From NCBI GenBank assembly GCA_016840065.1, contig JAEOTB010000023.1, positions 1 to 40,375 on the forward strand: a stretch of DNA of 40,375 nucleotides, in the 5' to 3' direction. This stretch comes from Candidatus Hermodarchaeota archaeon. GTDB taxonomy: Archaea; Asgardarchaeota; Hermodarchaeia; Hermodarchaeales; Hermodarchaeaceae. The notes beneath the pieces were generated by a model. It searched no databases and was not told where the DNA came from. It was given only the letters and a program-made list of their open reading frames with translations. A program made the translations under genes and the position numbers. Of the stretch, positions 9,203 through 23,928 are shown piece by piece; the first letter of the stretch is position 1, and each line of letters opens with the position of its first letter.

Positions 9203-9311
9203 CGTTCTGTGTTTCCTCTTATTCGGCACCAAGTTGTATCTAAAATAATCCGTTTGCCTGCATGGGCAACCTTTTACCTGAACCATTGGCAAATGATATT
9301 TGGTGTTCTTT

Positions 9312-10073
9312 GTGACAGCCCTCTGTTATCGGAGATTTACTGTTATCATTCTTTTTTCTTGTCTCCTCGCTGTAAACGCTGTATCAGGTTCTTTCAGGGA
9401 TGTCTCTGCCACCGTTATTTGGGCTGAAGATTTCGAAGATGGGAACCATGATGGTTGGACGGTTCATCTAGGGACCTTTTCAGCCGTCGATAACACACTA
9501 CGTGCAAGTGGTTTCGTCCTAAACGCGATATCACACCCGTCGTCACTCGAGACTGGAACATGGAGCATTGACCTATACTTTAGCCCTATCCCCCACTATT
9601 CGTCTATCTATATGTTCGTCGAAGATATTGGACAGGGTATTGGTAATAATGGCTATTGGCTGTACATCACCACCTTTCGCGTAACCCTCCACCTAGAAAC
9701 AGAATTTGTAACAGATCCCATAGCTAACTTCTCTTTCCCTGAACCCCTTAATGGCTGGCAACACTTCGACATCACACGTGACTCAACTGGGCTGATTCGC
9801 ACTTACATCAATGAAACCCTTTGTATGGAAGCCACTCACACAGAACACAACACCGCCAACTATTTTCTGATTCAATTGAGAGACGGCGACGCTATAGACA
9901 ATGTCGTGGTGTCTGATACAATTGACATAACACCCCCTCCCATCAGCACCGAGTTTCACTCACCACTGATTCCAATTCACTTCCTTCTAGGAGTAGCCAT
10001 CATACCAGCGGCACTTCTCTTAGCAATTCTTGTTTTTGGGATTCGTCGGAGGCCTCCTGCACCCCATACCTGA
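9312..10073 (+). CDS. Secreted one-TM protein with a jelly-roll-like ectodomain
   Basis: About 253 residues. The N-terminus (CYRRFTVIILFSCLLAVNAV) is a signal peptide or anchor, the middle (residues about 35-205) is beta-rich with AEDFEDGNHDGWTVHLGTFS and WQHFDITRDSTGLIRTYINE, a pattern typical of LamG/concanavalin-like sugar-binding folds, and the C-terminus has a hydrophobic segment (IHFLLGVAIIPAALLLAILV) followed by GIRRR. It should be displayed outside the cell and anchored at its C-terminus. I chose GTG at 9312, which follows the same TTGGTGTTCT element as the gene at 8412; TTG at 9300 is the upstream limit. Confidence 0.65.
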   Translation: MTALCYRRFTVIILFSCLLAVNAVSGSFRDVSATVIWAEDFEDGNHDGWTVHLGTFSAVDNTLRASGFVLNAISHPSSLETGTWSIDLYFSPIPHYSSIYMFVEDIGQGIGNNGYWLYITTFRVTLHLETEFVTDPIANFSFPEPLNGWQHFDITRDSTGLIRTYINETLCMEATHTEHNTANYFLIQLRDGDAIDNVVVSDTIDITPPPISTEFHSPLIPIHFLLGVAIIPAALLLAILVFGIRRRPPAPHT

Positions 10074-13427: not shown

Positions 13428-14411
13428 TCACTTCCAGACATCCTTGCCCCACATTTGTTCAGCGTGGTGGCAAGCAATAAAGTGCTTCTTACGAATCTCC
13501 CGAAACACTGGCTCTTTCTGTAAGCATACCTCTGAGGCAATAGGACAGCGAGGATGAAACCTACAACCTTCAGGTGGAAAGACAAGCCCAGGCGGAGAAC
13601 CTGGAACACTAACAAGGTGATCTGAACCAAGAAGGCTGGGTACAGATCGGATAAGCCCTTCAGTGTAGGGGTGCAGCCTCTCCTTGAAGATTGTAACGAC
13701 ATCTGCATATTCAATGATTTTCCCGGCATACATAATTGCGACACGATCGCATGCCTCTGCGATAGTGGCAAGATCGTGGGTAATCATGATTACTGAGAGG
13801 TTGTATTTCTTCTGCAGGCTCTGGATTAGTTTGAGTACTTGTGCTTCAACTGTAACATCGAGTGCGGTTGTTGGCTCGTCAGCGATGATGACCTTGGGCT
13901 CAGTCACAAGCGCCATGGCTATCATTGCGCGCTGTTTCATACCGCCAGAGAACTCGTGGGGATAGTTGTCAGCCCTAGTAGGGTCAACACCTACTGTTTC
14001 CAGCATGTCCTCCATCTTTCGGCGAGCATCGTCTTGAGATATATCTTCATGGAGCAGGATAGCTTCCATGATTTGGTCACCTATTCGGAGAACCGGGTTG
14101 AGGGCGTTCATTGCACCTTGGAAGCAGATGCTTATTTCCTTCCATCGGATTTTCCGCATCTCTTCAGGGGATCTCTGGACAAGGTCTATTCCATCTAGGA
14201 TGACTTCGCCTTCTACTACTTTGCCGGGGTAGGGCATGAGCTGGAGGATAGCATAGGCTGTGGTTGATTTGCCACAGCCTGATTCACCAGCCAGTCCCAT
14301 TGTTTCACCTCTTTCGAGGGTGAAAGAGATGCCGTCAACAGCTTTGACGGAACCCGCTTCGATGAAGAAGTGTGCCTTCAAGTCTTTGACTTCGAGCATT
14401 GGTTTTGCCAT
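13428..14411 (-). CDS. Oligopeptide/dipeptide ABC transporter ATP-binding protein, OppD/DppD type
   Basis: 327 residues with Walker A GESGCGKST near residue 40, signature EFSGGMKQR near 155, Walker B VIIADEPTTALDV and switch MITHDLATIAEACDR. The C-terminal tail GCRFHPRCPIASEVCLQKEP is the family cysteine tail. GGAGG lies about 10 nt before the ATG at 14411. Forms the ATPase heterodimer with the next gene; only 6 bp separate the two. Confidence 0.95.
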   Translation of the reverse strand: MAKPMLEVKDLKAHFFIEAGSVKAVDGISFTLERGETMGLAGESGCGKSTTAYAILQLMPYPGKVVEGEVILDGIDLVQRSPEEMRKIRWKEISICFQGAMNALNPVLRIGDQIMEAILLHEDISQDDARRKMEDMLETVGVDPTRADNYPHEFSGGMKQRAMIAMALVTEPKVIIADEPTTALDVTVEAQVLKLIQSLQKKYNLSVIMITHDLATIAEACDRVAIMYAGKIIEYADVVTIFKERLHPYTEGLIRSVPSLLGSDHLVSVPGSPPGLVFPPEGCRFHPRCPIASEVCLQKEPVFREIRKKHFIACHHAEQMWGKDVWK

Positions 14412-14447: not shown

Positions 14448-16559
14448 TTACTCACTTCGTACCCTTAGACGTGGGTTCAAGATTTCGTCTACCGCGTATC
14501 CAACTAGTGTGAATGAAAGCGCTAGTAACACTATGCAGATTCCGGGGAATAGGACATACCACCAAGCTCCCTCTGCGTACGCGCCAGCTTGGGATGCCTG
14601 CATTAGCATGCGTCCCCAGCTTACGTCGTGGGGATGTGTTAGTCCGAGGAAAGCTAGTCCGGCTTCTGACAGAATTGACCCTGCTACACCAAGGGTAATT
14701 TGTGCGAAGAGTAGGGGAGTAACGTTAGGAAGAACATGTCGGAAGATTATGTAGAGATCACTAGCACCGATAGCACGGGCGGCTTCTACGTAGGCTCGTT
14801 GACGTTCAGCAAGGACCTGAGAACGTACGAGCCGCGCCGTTCCCGTCCACCCTATCAATGCTATCACCAGCACGATGTTATACCAGCCAGGCGATAATAT
14901 TGCAGCTAGTACAATCATCAGTGGTAACCCAGGTATAACCAGGAAGAAGTCAGTTACACGCATTAGAACCTCATCGACTAGACCTCCAAAGTATCCAGAG
15001 ATTAGACCAACGATTAGACCGACAAAGGTTGCGATGGCAGCAGAGAGAAGACCGACTAGCAGTGCTATGCGGCTACCCCAGAGGAGTTGTGCCCAAAGAT
15101 CTTCTCCGTATTGTCCAGCCCCGAGATTACCGAAGTAGTTTCCACGAACTTCGAGATCTAGATCATCGAAGTAGATATCTATAGTCGGTGTGTCTTCGGG
15201 AGTTGGATCGTATACGACTACACGCCAACGTGCCTCCAAGTTACCACCTACTGCAAAGGTGTCGACTAGTTGGAAGGCGTTTATGACATTATGCGGTGAT
15301 GCAGTCCAAACTCTGGACGCTGTAATCTGTGAGCCTAGAAGAATAGTTATTATTTCGTCTGTGTTCTCGACCCATATCTCTTGGGCTATTCGAACATTAG
15401 CATCTCCGATAGGTCCGGTGAAGTCCACTTTGTATTGATAGTTTAGATAAGCAGCTTGTGGTCGATCGAGGACATCCCATGAAAAGCCAAAGCCTACATA
15501 TGCTGTAGCGTTTGGATAGGCGATATTAATAGCCTCGTCGTTGAAGGAGAAGTGATAACATCCAGGGCCGCTCCCAGTGTCGAGGTCGCTTCCCTCAGAG
15601 GAACTGTATCCACTTGAGATGACTGCGACAGTTTCGGCATCAGTATAGCTAGCACCAATCCCTAGTTTCACGTCGTCGACATGGAGATTCATTTGTGGAG
15701 TATTAGGACCAGATGGGTTGTAGTATTCCATATAGATGGTTAGACTCATGTTCTCAGTTGTAGCGTCTGGGAACATGGTGTTCATGGTCGATTGTGGCAT
15801 ATTGTATTGAAAGCTTTCCCTGAAGGACCGGTTTGAGGGTAGAAGCCACTCCCGATGGGAGAATGTGTGAGAGGCTGTAGAAGTGTTAAGTATCCAGTAC
15901 ATGTTTATCTCTGCGTCTCCCATTTCGGCTTCAGTGCAATAGAATTCCATTTGGTAGGCGTATTGGAGATATACCCTAAAGGGATGAACGTCGAAGGAAC
16001 CACCTAAATCAAGGTTATCATCGAATTCGAATGTGTAACTAATGTTTTCCCAACCGTGACTGCCAGAACCTGTAGTATCTATGTAACTGAAAAGGTATGA
16101 ACCAGGACCACTACCGCCTTCTAGCGGATCAAAACCGACGGTTTCGTCAAACCCAGAACCCATCGGGGTTGTGTACCCACCTGAGTCATAACCCCATCCA
16201 GTATCATTGACTGGGATGGAAAAGTTGGAGTAAATCGCAAGGTATTCAATATATTCTAAGGATTCGCCATAGTTCCAATCGCTAGCATCGGAATCGAAAT
16301 GAGAGTTTGTTATCGGAGCAACCTCGGTAAACCCTGCAGGGTTAATACCAAGAAGCCACATAGGTGCTGAGAGTGGCGGTGCAAGATTGACACGTACCGG
16401 TTGAGGCCATGGGATTAGGAAGGGGGCGAAAAACGCCATTAATAGGAAGAACAGAATAATGCCTAACCCGACTAAACCCATTTTGCTTTTCCGATACTGG
16501 CTCCAGAATCCACCAAAACGTGCTCTATATTCACTAAATCGTGACAATGTATTCACCAA
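14448..16559 (-). CDS. Peptide ABC permease (DppC type) with a 400-residue extracytoplasmic insertion
   Basis: 703 residues, more than twice the normal 280-300. Residues 1-50 are the usual cytoplasmic N-terminus and TM1 (MGLVGLGIILFFLLMAFFAP). The family segment normally read L-G-T-D-x-x-G-R-D is split: LLGINPAGF ends near residue 77 and GAGQYGEDLWAQLLWGSRIA resumes near 480. The rest is a normal DppC core with the coupling loop EAARAIGASDLYIIFRHVLP. The inserted part faces outside, is rich in Tyr, Ser, Asp and Asn, and consists of two related beta-rich modules. Start is TTG 16559 or GTG 16556; a TTG at 16547 preceded by GGTGA is also possible. Confidence 0.9.
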   Translation of the reverse strand: MVNTLSRFSEYRARFGGFWSQYRKSKMGLVGLGIILFFLLMAFFAPFLIPWPQPVRVNLAPPLSAPMWLLGINPAGFTEVAPITNSHFDSDASDWNYGESLEYIEYLAIYSNFSIPVNDTGWGYDSGGYTTPMGSGFDETVGFDPLEGGSGPGSYLFSYIDTTGSGSHGWENISYTFEFDDNLDLGGSFDVHPFRVYLQYAYQMEFYCTEAEMGDAEINMYWILNTSTASHTFSHREWLLPSNRSFRESFQYNMPQSTMNTMFPDATTENMSLTIYMEYYNPSGPNTPQMNLHVDDVKLGIGASYTDAETVAVISSGYSSSEGSDLDTGSGPGCYHFSFNDEAINIAYPNATAYVGFGFSWDVLDRPQAAYLNYQYKVDFTGPIGDANVRIAQEIWVENTDEIITILLGSQITASRVWTASPHNVINAFQLVDTFAVGGNLEARWRVVVYDPTPEDTPTIDIYFDDLDLEVRGNYFGNLGAGQYGEDLWAQLLWGSRIALLVGLLSAAIATFVGLIVGLISGYFGGLVDEVLMRVTDFFLVIPGLPLMIVLAAILSPGWYNIVLVIALIGWTGTARLVRSQVLAERQRAYVEAARAIGASDLYIIFRHVLPNVTPLLFAQITLGVAGSILSEAGLAFLGLTHPHDVSWGRMLMQASQAGAYAEGAWWYVLFPGICIVLLALSFTLVGYAVDEILNPRLRVRSE
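15129..16328 (-). repeat. Two diverged tandem modules inside the DppC insertion
   Basis: Protein-level repeat. Module 1 (about residues 86-302) and module 2 (about 303-473) share an ordered set of marks: G-S-G-P-G-[SC]-Y-x-F-S at 149 and 329; a YLQYAYQMEF/YLNYQYKVDF strand near 197 and 371; G-D-A-[EN]-[IV] near 214 and 385; and a closing P-x-[MI]-[ND]-[LI]-x-[VF]-D-D near 288 and 458. This layout suggests two jelly-roll (carbohydrate-binding-like) domains. DNA-level identity is low, so the duplication is old. Confidence 0.7.
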
Positions 16560-16565
16560 TCTTTA

Positions 16566-17564
16566 CTAATCATAGCGGACGCGCGGGTCGAGGAAGCCAT
16601 ACATTATGTCTGCGATAAAGTTTGCAATTATCGTGGTGAGCGCCAGGATATAGAATATCGCCTGGAGCACCGGATAGTTTTGCTGCATCACGCATGCGAA
16701 TATGTAGCTGCCCAGCCCGTACCAGTTGAAGACCGTCTCTGTTAGTGTCGCCCCACCTATGAGCCCCCCGAAAGTAAAGGCTATCATCGTGACCAAGGGG
16801 AGGATAGCATTCCTCATAGCATGCTTGTACAGAACTGTACGCTCATCCACACCCTTAGCCCTAGCGGTTACAATATAGTCTTCTGTGAGGACGTCGATCA
16901 GGTTGTTACGCATGACCAACATGTAACCACCATAGGAAACCAAAGCTAGAGTAATCGATGGGAGAACCAGATGGTGCGCGACATCCATTGCGTAGAGGAG
17001 TGGGTCTTCAGGCGCAGGTGCGCTGACAGTGCCACTGTAGGGGAAAATCCCCTGACCATTGGGAAGTCTGAGATAGAAGCCGAAAACAAGTATGAAAACC
17101 ATACCGAGCCAGAATGTAGGTATGCTGTAGAATGCTAGAGCTGTTGTGACTGTGCCCATGTCGAATTTGCCTCCCCGCTTTGCCGCAGCAGCCACACCAG
17201 TTATGACACCGATGATTATCGTTAGGATAGCTGCGGTTCCCATCAGTAGGAGGGTGTTGGGTAGGCGGGCGGAGATGGATTCGATGACTGGGCGAAAGCC
17301 TTCGGTGAAGGAGTTTCCGAAGTTAAAGGTAAACATGTTGACTACGTAGACACCGAATTGTATGTGAAGGGGTTGGTCCAGTCCCCAGAGGGCTCGCAGA
17401 GTTGCGGCCAGCTCTGCCTGGTTAGCTGCTAGGTTGCCGCTGATCAGGATTGAGGCTGGGTCCCCGGGCATTAGGCGGAAAACGAAGAAGTTGAAGGTGA
17501 TGGCACCGAAAATGAGGATGATACTGTTGATGATTCGTCTTATGATAAATTCGCGCAGGCCCAT
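16566..17564 (-). CDS. Peptide ABC transporter permease, DppB type
   Basis: 332 residues, normal length. The N-terminus REFIIRRIINSIILIFGAIT carries TM1, followed by the FRLMPGDPASIL family segment, WGLDQPLHIQFGVYV, five further TM segments, and the coupling loop TARAKGVDERTVLYKHAMRN. The C-terminus LDPRVRYD is typical. GGAGGAAATAAAAA precedes the ATG at 17564. First gene of a four-gene importer operon; its stop lies 6 bp before the start of the large DppC-type gene. No substrate-binding protein gene is seen next to it. Confidence 0.95.
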   Translation of the reverse strand: MGLREFIIRRIINSIILIFGAITFNFFVFRLMPGDPASILISGNLAANQAELAATLRALWGLDQPLHIQFGVYVVNMFTFNFGNSFTEGFRPVIESISARLPNTLLLMGTAAILTIIIGVITGVAAAAKRGGKFDMGTVTTALAFYSIPTFWLGMVFILVFGFYLRLPNGQGIFPYSGTVSAPAPEDPLLYAMDVAHHLVLPSITLALVSYGGYMLVMRNNLIDVLTEDYIVTARAKGVDERTVLYKHAMRNAILPLVTMIAFTFGGLIGGATLTETVFNWYGLGSYIFACVMQQNYPVLQAIFYILALTTIIANFIADIMYGFLDPRVRYD

Positions 17565-17960
17565 TTTTTATTTCCTCCTGTAATTAGGAAGATGATTCTA
17601 AGGCAGATTATCCACTTCATTTAAAAAAGTATGTTTTAGTGCAAGGTCGGGATTCCTCTGCCATTTTCAACGATAGCATGATTATATTTACGTAATTTCG
17701 TTAAATTTTTCGAATAAAAACGGAAGAACAGAGGTAACATTTTGTGACCTCTAGCTGTGAGCGCTTAAGGTGAGTTTTCCTTATATACTGTCAAGCTAGA
17801 ACAATCAGTTGCTGCAATGGTTGTTGATGGATAATGATGAACTTTGTAGTTCCTCGACTCGTAAATGATTCGGATTTATCCCCTTAACATCTTCGCAATT
17901 GCAGTGATAGCAAAGTTTAAAGAAAAGAATGTATTGCCACCTAAAGAGATGGGGATTTCA
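17565..17960. promoter_or_regulatory. Divergent promoter region between the ABC operon and a membrane-protein pair
   Basis: A 396-bp region without a supported gene. On the minus strand ACTTTTTTAAATG (17619-17631) is a TATA-like box for the ABC operon, about 58 nt before its ATG. On the plus strand AAGTTTAAAG near 17912-17921 is a TATA-like box about 40 nt before the starts at 17949/17961. The rest is AT-rich and shows nothing else. Confidence 0.45.
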
Positions 17961-18527
17961 ATGCGTGAGATAACCTCTTTGAGAAAACTTCGGTATTCAC
18001 AGTTAGTTGCCCTGTTATTCATTGGTTGTACAGTTTCCTCTGCTGTTGGTATCGTTATTCTAAATAATGATTACTTCTCAGTGTTCGATACCGCGAATCG
18101 TTTCATTCCTCGCGTCACACGATTTACCAAGTCCCCCGAAGGGCCAGGAAATTCTCGTAACCTTACTTTGTACCTGAATATGGCAAATCCAGGAAGTCGC
18201 CGAATTTTCTTCTTGAGAGAAGGGGATCCTACACAACCTACGAATATAGAAATTAGAATCTGGTTGAATGGCCATTTCATAACAAGTCAAGAACTTCGAC
18301 CAGAGCTAATCTTGTTACCAGGATCGGATTATACTCTCACGGCCAATTTCACGGTCGAAGATTTGGATATACCTACAAGCTATGGATCATACATCGCAGA
18401 CGCAGAAGAGACTGGCCTTTGGAATTGGGAATTATATTATCCAATGAGAATCTTTGTTGAGTGGCTATATATCAGAGAATCTCATCTCCGAATGCCTTGG
18501 TCAGGAATTGAGGTGCCAGTACAATGA
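17961..18527 (+). CDS. One-TM extracellular protein of unknown function
   Basis: About 188 residues from the ATG at 17961 (ATG at 17949 adds four). A membrane anchor YSQLVALLFIGCTVSSAVGI is followed by a beta-rich ectodomain with NLTLYLNMANPGSRRIFFLR, NIEIRIWLNGHFITSQELRP and a closing VEWLYIRESHLRMPWSG. The pattern of alternating hydrophobic residues suggests an immunoglobulin-like sandwich. Its stop overlaps the next start (ATGA at 18524), so the two are translationally coupled. Confidence 0.65.
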   Translation: MREITSLRKLRYSQLVALLFIGCTVSSAVGIVILNNDYFSVFDTANRFIPRVTRFTKSPEGPGNSRNLTLYLNMANPGSRRIFFLREGDPTQPTNIEIRIWLNGHFITSQELRPELILLPGSDYTLTANFTVEDLDIPTSYGSYIADAEETGLWNWELYYPMRIFVEWLYIRESHLRMPWSGIEVPVQ

Positions 18528-18979
18528 CAATATCTACAAAGAGAAAAGAAGTGCTAATGGGTCGTTTACGTATGTCGCTTGCCCTCTTGGGCGGTGGCTT
18601 GATGTTATGCCTAACAACCTATACAACACTTGTTAACTTGACAGATGCATTATGGGTCATCTTAATGGTATTGGGTGTTGGAATACTCATAGGAATGATG
18701 AGCAGCGAAATCCAATGGGCCTTAGTTCTAGCGATAGCCTCCTTTTTCATGGGAATCGTCTTCTACATCATCTCAATCATGATTCCAGTGACGTTGTTCG
18801 GTTCTGCAGCTTTAGGTGATGTGTTAATTCTCTTTGGCCTCTTTGCAGTCTTACGAGTAATACACTTACAGATTTTTGGTCTATTCATTGGCGCTTTTAT
18901 AGGTAGAGTTATTGGTCCCGATTGGTACGCTGTGGGAGTAATAGCCCAACATCAGCTCAGACCTACTAGAAAAGAATGA
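18524..18979 (+). CDS. Four-TM membrane protein of unknown function
   Basis: 151 residues with about four hydrophobic segments (MSLALLGGGLMLCLTTYTTL, ALWVILMVLGVGILIGMMSS, WALVLAIASFFMGIVFYIIS, and a long one around LGDVLILFGLFAVLRV-IFGLFIGAFIGRVIG). No known family. It overlaps the upstream one-TM gene by 4 bp, so the two products probably form a complex. Confidence 0.65.
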   Translation: MTISTKRKEVLMGRLRMSLALLGGGLMLCLTTYTTLVNLTDALWVILMVLGVGILIGMMSSEIQWALVLAIASFFMGIVFYIISIMIPVTLFGSAALGDVLILFGLFAVLRVIHLQIFGLFIGAFIGRVIGPDWYAVGVIAQHQLRPTRKE

Positions 18980-19547: not shown

Positions 19548-19898
19548 ATGCGTGTCATGAACAGCAGCAGAAACACGATAGCCCAAATCTCTGGGAGCAG
19601 GATTATGAGCAGCAGCGGAAGTACTTGGGGCTATGTTGAGAGTGGTCGTGTGATGAACAGTAGCCGCAGTACAATCGGATATGTTGAAAATGGCTACGTG
19701 ATGAATTCCTCAAGAAGCACCATCGGTCGCTACGACTCAGGACGGATAAGCTCCTCCTCAGGATCGACTCGTTTCTATATCGAAGGAACTAGAATAATGA
19801 GCAGTAGTCGGAATAGTATTGGTTATACTAGTGAATCAGCTGAATCATACCTTGAAGAAGTTATAGCATATATCGTCTTCTTTTCCGACTGGTGGTGA
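19548..19898 (+). CDS. Six-fold 16-residue repeat protein (beta-flower-like)
   Basis: 116 residues. Residues 2-97 are six contiguous 16-residue units of the form R-[VI]-M-[NS]-S-S-[RG]-[SN]-[TS]-I-G-Y-V-E-S-G, with no gaps. Each unit predicts two short strands and a turn. This resembles small 'beta-flower' repeat proteins with units like x-I-y-x-x-x-G-x-x-I-G-Y-[IV]-x, closed into a ring, but I cannot confirm the family. The tail (SYLEEVIAYIVFFSDWW) is hydrophobic and could dock on a membrane or partner. AGGAGG lies 8 nt before the ATG. Confidence 0.75.
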   Translation: MRVMNSSRNTIAQISGSRIMSSSGSTWGYVESGRVMNSSRSTIGYVENGYVMNSSRSTIGRYDSGRISSSSGSTRFYIEGTRIMSSSRNSIGYTSESAESYLEEVIAYIVFFSDWW

Positions 19899-20266: not shown

Positions 20267-22327
20267 TTGAGTAAACAAGGTTCCAGACCAGTTCGTATCG
20301 GTATTGATGTTGGAGGAACCTTCACTGATGTACTCCTTGTCGACCATCAAGGTCAGCGCTGGCATGTTAAGGTTCCGTCAACACCAAGTGATTCTTCGCA
20401 GGGAGTTCTCAGAGGTCTACAAGAAGTATTAGATTTGGCTGAGACAGCACCAAATCAGATCTCCTACATCCTTCACGGTACGACTGTTGCAACGAATGCA
20501 GTATTACAGCGACAAGGCGCAAGAATCAGCCTTATTACAACTAAAGGGTTTGAGAATCTCCTTGAAATTGGACGACAGCAGCGCCCTTCACTGTATGATA
20601 TATCAGTTGACAGAATTCCTCCATTAGTACCCCGAGAACGTTGTATTGGAGTTATTGAGCGGATTACATCCGATGGGAGACTTCACACTAAATTAACTAA
20701 AAAGGAAGCCGCCAAGGTTGCTAGAATATCGGGGGAAAATGTTGAGGCGGTTGCGGTCTGCTTGCTGTTCGGTTACAGCAACCCTTCTCATGAAAAACAA
20801 TTGTACAGACATTTAGAGTCTCTCTATCCTGGAATCCCTGTTTCTCTTTCTTCAGAAGTCTTGCCGGAGTACCGTGAGTATGAACGGATGTCTACGACAG
20901 TTCTTGAAGCGTATGTTACTCCACTGCTTTCGACTTACCTACAGAACCTCGAAGATGCACTCAAGTCAGCTAATGTGACAGCCCCTCTATTAGTTATGCA
21001 GAGTCACGGGGGAATCCTTCAGTCTTCCTTGGCTCGACAGCAAGCTGCACGATTATTATTCAGTGGTCTTGCAGGCGGCACTCTAGGAGGACGCTATACC
21101 AGCCAGGTCACTAATGAAGATAATCTTATCACATTTGACATGGGCGGCACAAGCACGGATGTAGCACTAATAACAAAAGGAGAAATTCGTGAAACCACAG
21201 AAGGACACATTGGAGGACTCCCCTGTCGTGCGCCAATGGTAGATGTTGAGACAGTGGGAGCAGGTGGTGGTAGCATTGCTTGGATTGACGACGGAGGTAT
21301 TCTGCGAGTTGGACCACATAGTGCTGGTGCCGACCCTGGTCCTTGTTGTTACAATAAAGGTGGTCGTGAAGCAACCGTAACTGATGCTAATCTAATTCTG
21401 GGCCGACTGAACCCACACTATTTTCTTGGAGGCAAACTACCTCTCCACCCTCAACCTGCTCGAGAACAGCTACTGCGCCTGAGTCGACAGCTTCGTCTTT
21501 CTATGGAGGAGTTCGCCTTTGGTATCATACGTGTTGTTAACGCCAACATGGAACGTGCCATCCGACTTGTTTCTATTCAACGGGGATATGATCCTCGCGA
21601 CTTTGCCCTTGTTGCCTTTGGAGGTGCTGGACCCATGCATGCTTGGGCTTTAGCAAAGGAACTTGGAATTCCACGTGTGATTGTTCCACTTGCGCCTGGA
21701 CTACACTCTGCTCTTGGATTGTTAGCTACTAACTTACGCTGCGACCGTAGTCGTACAGTTCTCATACCAGCGAGTACTCCAGATTTTTCGGAACTTACCA
21801 CTACATACCAAAATCTCGAGTCCGCTACTAAACAACTACTTCGGGCGCAAGGAGTAAAAGAAAAGGATATCCACACTCGACGTTTGGTAGACCTCCGTTA
21901 CCGGGGACAAGCCTACGAGTTTACATTAGATGCGCCGAAAGGGAGAATAAATCAGAATTGGTTAAATCGATTACTTGAGAGCTTCCACACAAGACACAAG
22001 CGAAGATATGGTTATTCAACCCCTTACGACGAAGTAACCATCGTTAACCTGCGTATCACTACCATTGGTTCCATGCCAGCCTTACTGCCTCCAAATATCT
22101 CTGAAACAGGAATGAGACCCGTACCAAAGGAACAACGTAGAGTATATTTTGAGGAGCTTCAAGAATTTGTAGAGACGCCAATCTTTGAAAGGTCATCTTT
22201 AGGGCTCGGCTCTGAGATACAGGGCCCAGCCATAATTGAACAGCTAGACTCAACGACCATCGTTCACCCGAATACTAAGGCGGTTATGCGAAAAGACGGC
22301 AACCTCCTGTTGGAGGAGATTCGATGA
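20267..22327 (+). CDS. hyuA: Hydantoinase/oxoprolinase alpha subunit
   Basis: 686 residues, normal for HyuA. The actin-like ATPase fold is marked by RIGIDVGGTFTDVLLVDHQG at the N-terminus, HGTTVATNAVLQRQGA near residue 70, LITFDMGGTSTDVALI near 285, and the family block VGAGGGSIAWIDDGG-x-GPHSAGADPGPCCY near 330. With HyuB it hydrolyses N-methylhydantoin, hydantoin or 5-oxoproline, usually with ATP. The substrate cannot be told from sequence. The TTG at 20267 has GAGGT about 7 nt upstream. Overlaps hyuB by 4 bp (ATGA). Confidence 0.93.
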   Translation: MSKQGSRPVRIGIDVGGTFTDVLLVDHQGQRWHVKVPSTPSDSSQGVLRGLQEVLDLAETAPNQISYILHGTTVATNAVLQRQGARISLITTKGFENLLEIGRQQRPSLYDISVDRIPPLVPRERCIGVIERITSDGRLHTKLTKKEAAKVARISGENVEAVAVCLLFGYSNPSHEKQLYRHLESLYPGIPVSLSSEVLPEYREYERMSTTVLEAYVTPLLSTYLQNLEDALKSANVTAPLLVMQSHGGILQSSLARQQAARLLFSGLAGGTLGGRYTSQVTNEDNLITFDMGGTSTDVALITKGEIRETTEGHIGGLPCRAPMVDVETVGAGGGSIAWIDDGGILRVGPHSAGADPGPCCYNKGGREATVTDANLILGRLNPHYFLGGKLPLHPQPAREQLLRLSRQLRLSMEEFAFGIIRVVNANMERAIRLVSIQRGYDPRDFALVAFGGAGPMHAWALAKELGIPRVIVPLAPGLHSALGLLATNLRCDRSRTVLIPASTPDFSELTTTYQNLESATKQLLRAQGVKEKDIHTRRLVDLRYRGQAYEFTLDAPKGRINQNWLNRLLESFHTRHKRRYGYSTPYDEVTIVNLRITTIGSMPALLPPNISETGMRPVPKEQRRVYFEELQEFVETPIFERSSLGLGSEIQGPAIIEQLDSTTIVHPNTKAVMRKDGNLLLEEIR

Positions 22328-23928
22328 AAACTGACCCAGTTACCTTTGAGGTTCTCAGGAACGCATTTGTCTCTGTAGCAGAGGAAATGGGTGCAAGTCT
22401 GATTCGCACAGCATTCTCACCAAATATTAAGGAGCGCCGTGACTGTTCAGCCGCTGTGTTTGATAGCCTAGGAAGAATGGTCAGCCAAGCTGAACATATC
22501 CCAGTTCACCTAGGAGCCATGCCAGAGTCCATCAAAGCTGCCCTAGTCGAGTTCCCTGCTGATCTTTGGAATGATGGTGATGTGGTTATCCTCAACGACC
22601 CCTTCGAAGGAGGAACACACCTACCAGATATCACCTTGATTTCACCTGTATTCACTTCTGGGGAGCTTACTGGCTTTGTAGCGAATCGAGCTCACCATGC
22701 TGACGTGGGTGGCAAAGCACCTGGATCTATGCCTGGTGACTCTACTGAGATATTTCAAGAGGGGCTCCGAATACCTCCTCTGAAATTAATTGAGGAAGAG
22801 ACTCTTAATCAGGAGGTGTGGCGTCTACTACTTGCTAACGTTAGAACCCCTCGTGAACGCCAAGGAGATTTACGGGCACAACTTGCCGCAAACAATACTG
22901 GTCTCCGTCGATTTCAGGCAATTACTGAGAAATACGGAGTGGCAGCAGTAACGACTTTTCTTGGGGATCTTCTAGCCTATTCGGAGCGGCGTATGCAGAA
23001 GCAGATTAGGCAAATGCCAAAGGGCAGTTATTCGTTTACCGACTATCTTGACAACGATGGCATTACAGAGGAACCAGTGAAACTTTCAGTAAAGGTAACA
23101 ATTGACAGAACACGGATTTCTTTTGATTTCTCAGGCACAAGCCCGCAACGACAAGGAAACGTAAACGCAACCTTTGCAGTGACTCTCTCAACATCCTACT
23201 ATGTCCTTCGCTGCGTCACTGACCCCACAATTCCCGCTAATGCAGGGTGTTACAGACCCCTCACCGTTAGAGCACCACCAGGCTCACTTCTAAACCCTAC
23301 TCCTCCAGCAGCAGTAGCCGCAGGAAATGTAGAAACCTCCCAGCGCGTAGTTGATGTGCTCTTCGGCGCCCTCGCAAAAGCACTCCCTGACCGAATCCCT
23401 GCAGCTAGCCAAGGTACAATGAATAACCTCACCATAGGAGGTATAATTCCAGGAACCACTCATGCCTTTACATTCTACGAAACAATTGGTGGTGGCATTG
23501 GAGCGAGACCAACCAAAAACGGTGTAGATGGTATTCACAGCCATATGACAAACACCATGAACACACCTATTGAAGCTCTCGAAACAAGCTATCCGCTCAG
23601 AGTCCGTTGCTACCACCTTATTCCAGGTAGTGGTGGAAAGGGACTATTTCGTGGTGGATTAGGTATCCGCCGAGACATCGAGATTCTCATTGACCAAGCA
23701 ATCGTTTCCATTCAGAGTGAGCGCCGCCACTACGCTCCTTGGGGTCTTCAAGGTGGTATGCCTGGACGAAGGGGTGTGAACCAACGCTGGCGTGGTGGAA
23801 AGTGGGAGAAACTCCCCAGCAAGATTACCTTCACTGCCTCAAGAGGAGAAGTTGTAAGTATACAGACTCCAGGAGGGGGTGGTTTTGGGAAGCCAAAGCA
23901 GAGGAGTCGAAGAAAGTCACAGAAGTAG
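22324..23928 (+). CDS. hyuB: Hydantoinase/oxoprolinase beta subunit
   Basis: 534 residues. Family marks: [20 protein letters not shown] at the start, the metal-site segment [56 protein letters not shown], and a C-terminal glycine-rich end ([16 protein letters not shown]). Partner of the alpha subunit encoded immediately upstream, translationally coupled. Its last 12 bp overlap the end of the convergent LysE-like gene. Confidence 0.95.

Follow-up and report, generated by a model that had tools for sequence, protein, structure and literature searches.

Introduction

The topology of DppC permeases is established and places the loop between TM1 and TM2 outside. In the peptide importer of E. coli, DppBCDF with the solute-binding protein (SBP) DppA (PDB 8z1v-8z1z), DppA caps DppB and DppC, and a scoop formed between TM1 and TM2 of DppB enters the DppA cleft (PMC12136057). 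In the maltose transporter MalFGK2, one permease subunit has an outside loop with a folded domain of its own, the P2 domain of MalF, which contacts the binding protein (PMC3150292 and work cited there). Searches of open-access papers gave nothing relevant on inserts in DppC or on permuted family-5 SBPs, and no description of how Asgard peptide importers differ from bacterial ones was found. Many Asgard archaea, which among known archaea are most closely related to eukaryotes, are thought to live on peptides that they take up.

The Dpp operon and its interrupted DppC

The window, i.e., the whole stretch of 40,375 nucleotides analysed here, stems from a draft genome of 2.59 Mb in 131 contigs which is 84% complete. 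It contains an operon on the minus strand in the order dppB-dppC-dppD-dppF. The features are:

16566..17564, minus strand: dppB, 332-aa partner permease of ordinary length, without insert
14448..16559, minus strand: dppC, 703-aa permease with insert, TTG start (ORF, domain and alignment evidence)
16416..16481, minus strand: TM1 of DppC, residues 27-48 (hydropathy; helix 26-48 in the model)
16323..16409, minus strand: N-side linker, residues 51-79, LAPPxxAPMWLL...GF (orthologue alignment)
15645..16322, minus strand: insert domain A, residues 80-305, predicted jelly-roll (hhalign, model, fold search)
15138..15644, minus strand: insert domain B, residues 306-474, predicted second jelly-roll, homologue of A (hhalign, model)
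14451..15137, minus strand: junction GNYFGNLGAGQYGED and remaining membrane part with permease signature, residues 475-703 (domain match, alignment, fold search)
13428..14411, minus strand: dppD ATPase, C-terminal four-cysteine motif C283, C289, C296, C314
12399..13421, minus strand: dppF ATPase, C-terminal four-cysteine motif C298, C304, C311, C329

DppC matches the Pfam families OppC_N (residues 17-62, 40.9 bits) and BPD_transp_1 (residues 514-699, 107.1 bits), both above the cut-offs; a domain search of the 703-aa product returned no family between them. When aligned with E. coli DppC (8z1v_B), residues 17-69 correspond to 21-72 and residues 477-699 to 79-299, i.e., 407 residues of the archaeal protein replace a gap of 6 residues. 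By this alignment the insertion point lies directly after PPAW of E. coli DppC and ahead of LGTDxxGRD. A sequence-only reading of the window had claimed that the DppC frame is interrupted by one domain of 400 residues at 15129-16328, equivalent to residues 78-477. The interruption is real and is contained in a single 703-aa ORF. The extent of the insert holds up; instead of one domain, however, hhalign and the structural model indicate two homologous jelly-rolls, and the model suggests residues 80-305 and 306-474 as better boundaries than 78-477.

Outside the insert the likeness to the E. coli system is close. The membrane part matches E. coli DppC by fold (Foldseek E 4e-14, 40% identity; against 8z1w_B, E 4.2e-14 and an rmsd of 1.8 over 221 columns). 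E. coli likewise employs two different ATPases, and the four cysteines which follow oligo_HPY in DppD and in DppF, the criterion of Dpp-type [4Fe-4S] ATPases, have nearly the same spacing in both organisms (PMC12136057). Yet the archaeal DppC, with 172 bits, stays below the PRK10913 equivalog cut-off for DppC of 483, and no NCBIfam equivalog cut-off is reached. In contrast to the E. coli system, a gene for a cognate binding protein is absent from the operon in the window, and it is absent as well from the two-domain operons of its relatives.

Conservation in related genomes

Six other genomes of the family contain the same continuous frame (G001, G002, G004, G005, G006, G007; 697-722 aa, 46-78% identity). 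Two public contigs, JAEOSX010000178.1 and JABXGV010000015.1, match two of these six relatives, in a contig scan whose reach was limited to close relatives; the nearest named public contig, with 77% identity over DppC, is labelled Candidatus Hermodarchaeota. Wherever contig flanks of the relatives permit, the gene order is conserved: LysE, HyuB, HyuA, small membrane proteins, DppB, DppC, DppD, DppF and an unnamed gene. An artefact, be it a frameshift or an assembly join near residue 78 or 478 or an error of gene fusion, is practically out of the question, because only the draft quality of the assembly speaks for it and seven genomes agree in an unbroken frame, in identical boundaries and in synteny.

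Compared with the nearest orthologue (G001), dN/dS is 0.15 in the TM1 part, 0.26 in domain A, 0.20 in domain B and 0.03 in the membrane part, ratios which are rough as synonymous distances in the domains are about 1. Values of 0.20-0.26 indicate purifying selection on the insert. Its evolution outpaces that of the membrane part about 7-9 times, still under constraint. The N-side linker is more conserved than the domains, with 10 of 29 residues invariant in the seven orthologues versus 26 of 226 in domain A, and its form is common to other insert-bearing DppCs. Invariant aromatic residues are present among the orthologues of the insert.

Topology and fold of the insert

Basic residues prevail in the N-tail of DppC (6 K/R versus 1 D/E) and acidic ones in the insert (12 K/R versus 57 D/E). 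The insert carries seven N-glycosylation sequons and has no TM segment, the highest 19-residue hydropathy within it being 1.03. Since it follows TM1 in a permease of established topology, the insert should be located outside. The extracytoplasmic placement claimed from the sequence is thus well supported, and a cytoplasmic insert is ruled out by charges, sequons, position and the missing TM segment.

The structure prediction suggested for the 703-residue product was run with DppC as a single chain (AlphaFold2, 24 sequences; mean pLDDT 75.6, pTM 0.49). The model predicts an all-β insert in two blocks, approximately residues 96-305 and 314-472, with low-confidence linkers at residues 51-80 and 474-485. 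With a pTM of 0.49, it is uncertain how the domains are placed relative to the translocation entrance; tandem TM-scores are low because of the uncertain domain placement. By hhalign, domain B is a homologue of domain A (probability 99.4, E 4e-21), which at the sequence level marks the pair as an internal duplication. Domain A carries an extra N-terminal repeat of an N-x-x-F-D...W motif.

Foldseek ranks E. coli DppC first for the DppC model. It is followed by the tandem CBM22 of Xyn10C (CBM22-1/CBM22-2, 4xup), the best non-transporter match with E 1.4e-7 for the predicted model, and then by others, among them meprin with its MAM domain and further CBMs. The insert domains are predicted jelly-roll β-sandwiches which resemble tandem CBM22 and MAM domains, and the predicted fold is shared with CBM4 and with Eph ligand-binding domains. 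Identities to these are about 10%, and they reside in enzymes or receptors, whereas the insert resides in a permease loop. Neither domain matched a Pfam family, CBMs included, even at E 10, and a search of the PDB by sequence gave no match to them. A profile of the insert matched in 12 of 228 Asgard genomes, exclusively in frames of 391-722 aa (those of G121, G124, G125 and G128 were left out of further reading), and had zero matches in plasmids. A mobile domain of other proteins was rejected on these searches, the PDB included.

The same loop in other Asgard DppCs

The loop was surveyed in Asgard archaea; family codes such as f1 and f3 are anonymous labels, and the f1 genomes are 74-86% complete. 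Between TM1 and LGTDxxGRD, among the DppCs measured, ordinary ones possess 12-47 residues and insert-bearing ones 168-385; in the window DppC the loop has about 431. Single-insert DppCs exist in the families f1, f3, f16 and f21 (L022-L036, L057-L061, L064). They use the same loop and a similar APxWxxxFDP linker, but have one domain of about 177-225 residues where the window DppC has two. Some f1 genomes contain a second DppC of 508-528 aa with a single domain homologous to A and B (L057-L059). The insert of f3, 208-225 residues in the same loop, is likewise a predicted jelly-roll (pLDDT 88, pTM 0.86), and its model matches meprin/MAM and CBM4 structures. As sequence homologues of A or B the f3 inserts were rejected for lack of significance; the similarity is one of fold only. 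Evidently, an insertion in this loop of DppC is not unique: several Asgard families hold single-domain versions or other folds, and the loop has held extra domains repeatedly.

Three loci deserve mention for their architecture. A DppC of f21 (L070:3316-5259, minus strand) carries FG-GAP repeats in the TM1-TM2 loop. In the f3 loci L054 and L055 two insert-bearing dppC genes flank one dppB; in this family one DppB may pair with either of two DppCs. Also in f3, DppB and DppC are apparently fused in products of 920-933 aa (L067:3271-6030, minus strand; L068:835-3633, plus strand).

In a tree of the membrane part the seven two-domain DppCs form one clade (100/99), which adjoins the single-insert proteins of f3 and f1. 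Over the whole set, the branches with good support require a minimum of three gains or losses of the insert, an estimate which the long branches make rough. A single origin of all inserts is therefore unsupported. The simplest history would start from a single domain, with its duplication following later in the Hermodarchaeota-type lineage.

Solute-binding proteins

The source genome has one DppC match and five or six family-5 SBP genes, the latter on other contigs and some cut by contig ends; SBPs unlinked to the operon are those of L047, L048 and L049. Its SBPs have C-terminal TM anchors. SBPs of f1 and f3 are circularly permuted, i.e., positions ~141-365 of the SBP_bac_5 profile come first and are followed by ~2-145. 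Those with a C-terminal TM anchor include:

L047:1417-3474, minus strand: permuted family-5 SBP
L047:3650-5653, minus strand: permuted family-5 SBP
L048:1788-3896, plus strand: permuted family-5 SBP
L055:3490-5364, minus strand: permuted family-5 SBP

The two SBPs of L047 end in a cysteine-rich, zinc-ribbon-like tail. A BLASTP comparison of the normal-order SBP of L056 with the permuted one of L055 shows the exchange directly: residues 313-646 correspond to 57-383, and then residues 63-173 to 392-515. A second type of permutation, with the break near profile position 288, occurs in other Asgard families, including families with an insert-free DppC. Every examined operon in which a 141-type permuted SBP stands beside DppC has the insert there (L055, L057-L059, G074). 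Insert-bearing DppCs also adjoin normal-order SBPs (L061, L066, L070). A strict coupling of insert and permuted SBP is ruled out by these three loci and by the 288-type SBPs in insert-free families.

Possible functions of the insert

The sequence-only reading had suggested substrate capture or docking of a partner; in my view docking is the better fit. By analogy, the insert would be a docking platform for SBPs which works like the MalF-P2 loop, opposite the DppB scoop. I assign this explanation a probability of about 45%. The gene encodes the DppC subunit of a peptide importer, DppBCDF, in a Hermodarchaeota-type Asgard archaeon. Its two tandem jelly-rolls in the first outside loop would stand beside the translocation entrance and hold membrane-tethered SBPs from the DppC side, and such a platform would let several SBPs load one translocator.

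Several observations, from which I infer both the binding partner and the docking role, argue for this. The insert sits in the DppC loop which corresponds to the DppB scoop, and DppB itself is of ordinary length. A single DppC match alongside five or six SBP genes favours a platform for several tethered SBPs, a count weakened by the 84% completeness of the genome. Fast yet constrained evolution is expected of a surface interface. The presence of the insert in all examined DppCs next to 141-type permuted SBPs also counts in favour. Against docking, the two-domain operons have no SBP gene, and linkage thus does not single out a partner; insert-bearing DppCs are also found next to normal-order SBPs, and the fold of the insert is that of sugar-binding modules as well. 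MalF-P2 (MalF residues 91-271) belongs to another permease family and differs in loop and size, and it is in MalF that the SBP contact has been seen. If the docking role is true, it extends the MalF-P2 idea to the peptide family.

A broader proposal is that the outer side of the importer was remodelled as a unit in Hermodarchaeia and in another Asgard family. DppC would have acquired a jelly-roll platform, duplicated in Hermodarchaeia, and the SBPs would have become circularly permuted and tethered by a C-terminal TM helix; several tethered SBPs docking on the platform would then serve one translocator. This I regard as conceivable, though doubtful. If true, a permease loop which repeatedly gains outside domains, together with permuted SBPs, would make a case, open to testing, in which importer and delivery proteins were rebuilt jointly.

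Alternatively, the domains may be carbohydrate-binding modules which sit at the transporter mouth and capture glycans, glycopeptides or pieces of the cell wall; the permease would then have substrate capture built in. The fold matches to tandem CBM22, to other CBMs and, for the f3 insert, to CBM4 point in this direction. However, no CBM family of Pfam matched at E 10, MAM and Eph domains, which serve protein-protein contact on the same superfold, match too, and adjacent genes (5-oxoprolinase, LysE, urocanase) indicate the use of peptides and amino acids. I consider glycan capture unlikely.

There is also a rather small chance that the insert serves to anchor or space the transporter within the S-layer or glycocalyx of the cell surface, or that a secreted peptidase docks on it, in place of a contact with substrate or SBP. 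Rapid divergence, the sequons and the variable domain type at one site, with FG-GAP repeats in L070, would suit a role in surface contact, although no observation links the insert with S-layer proteins. In G004 the operon is followed by a subtilase gene, but none is adjacent to it in the window.

Compared with SBP docking, a tolerated decoration of an exposed loop with no specific function is a poor candidate. Different kinds of domain were gained by the loop in different families, with at least three changes forced on the tree, as decoration would have it. Yet seven species retain both domains, at overall identities as low as 46% and with dN/dS of 0.20-0.26, and the linker residues are conserved. 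Thus decoration appears improbable.

Neighbouring genes

Genes for HyuA and HyuB (hydantoinase/5-oxoprolinase) and a LysE-type exporter at 20267-23928 (plus strand) are syntenic with the two-domain Dpp operon; the adjacent HyuA/HyuB suggest peptide or amino-acid derivatives as substrates of the importer. Divergent from dppB and beside it are genes for a one-TM protein with an outside domain (17865-18527, plus strand) and a four-TM protein (18524-18979, plus strand), both conserved in f1. At the profile level, the former weakly resembles proteins encoded next to other Asgard Dpp operons. The genome also has a second dppB of close similarity, which stands on its own with no adjoining dppC (G000:C7:1260-2303, L093); it is either an orphan copy or due to a strain mixture in the draft genome. 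At 9300-10073 (plus strand) a concanavalin-like lectin domain (PF13385, under the curated cut-off) is followed by a C-terminal hydrophobic anchor. A short protein with N-S-S-R-x-T-I-G-Y repeats (19548-19898, plus strand) matches the 5-fold beta-flower family PF21785, and a repeat protein of this type is conserved beside the operon in L045.
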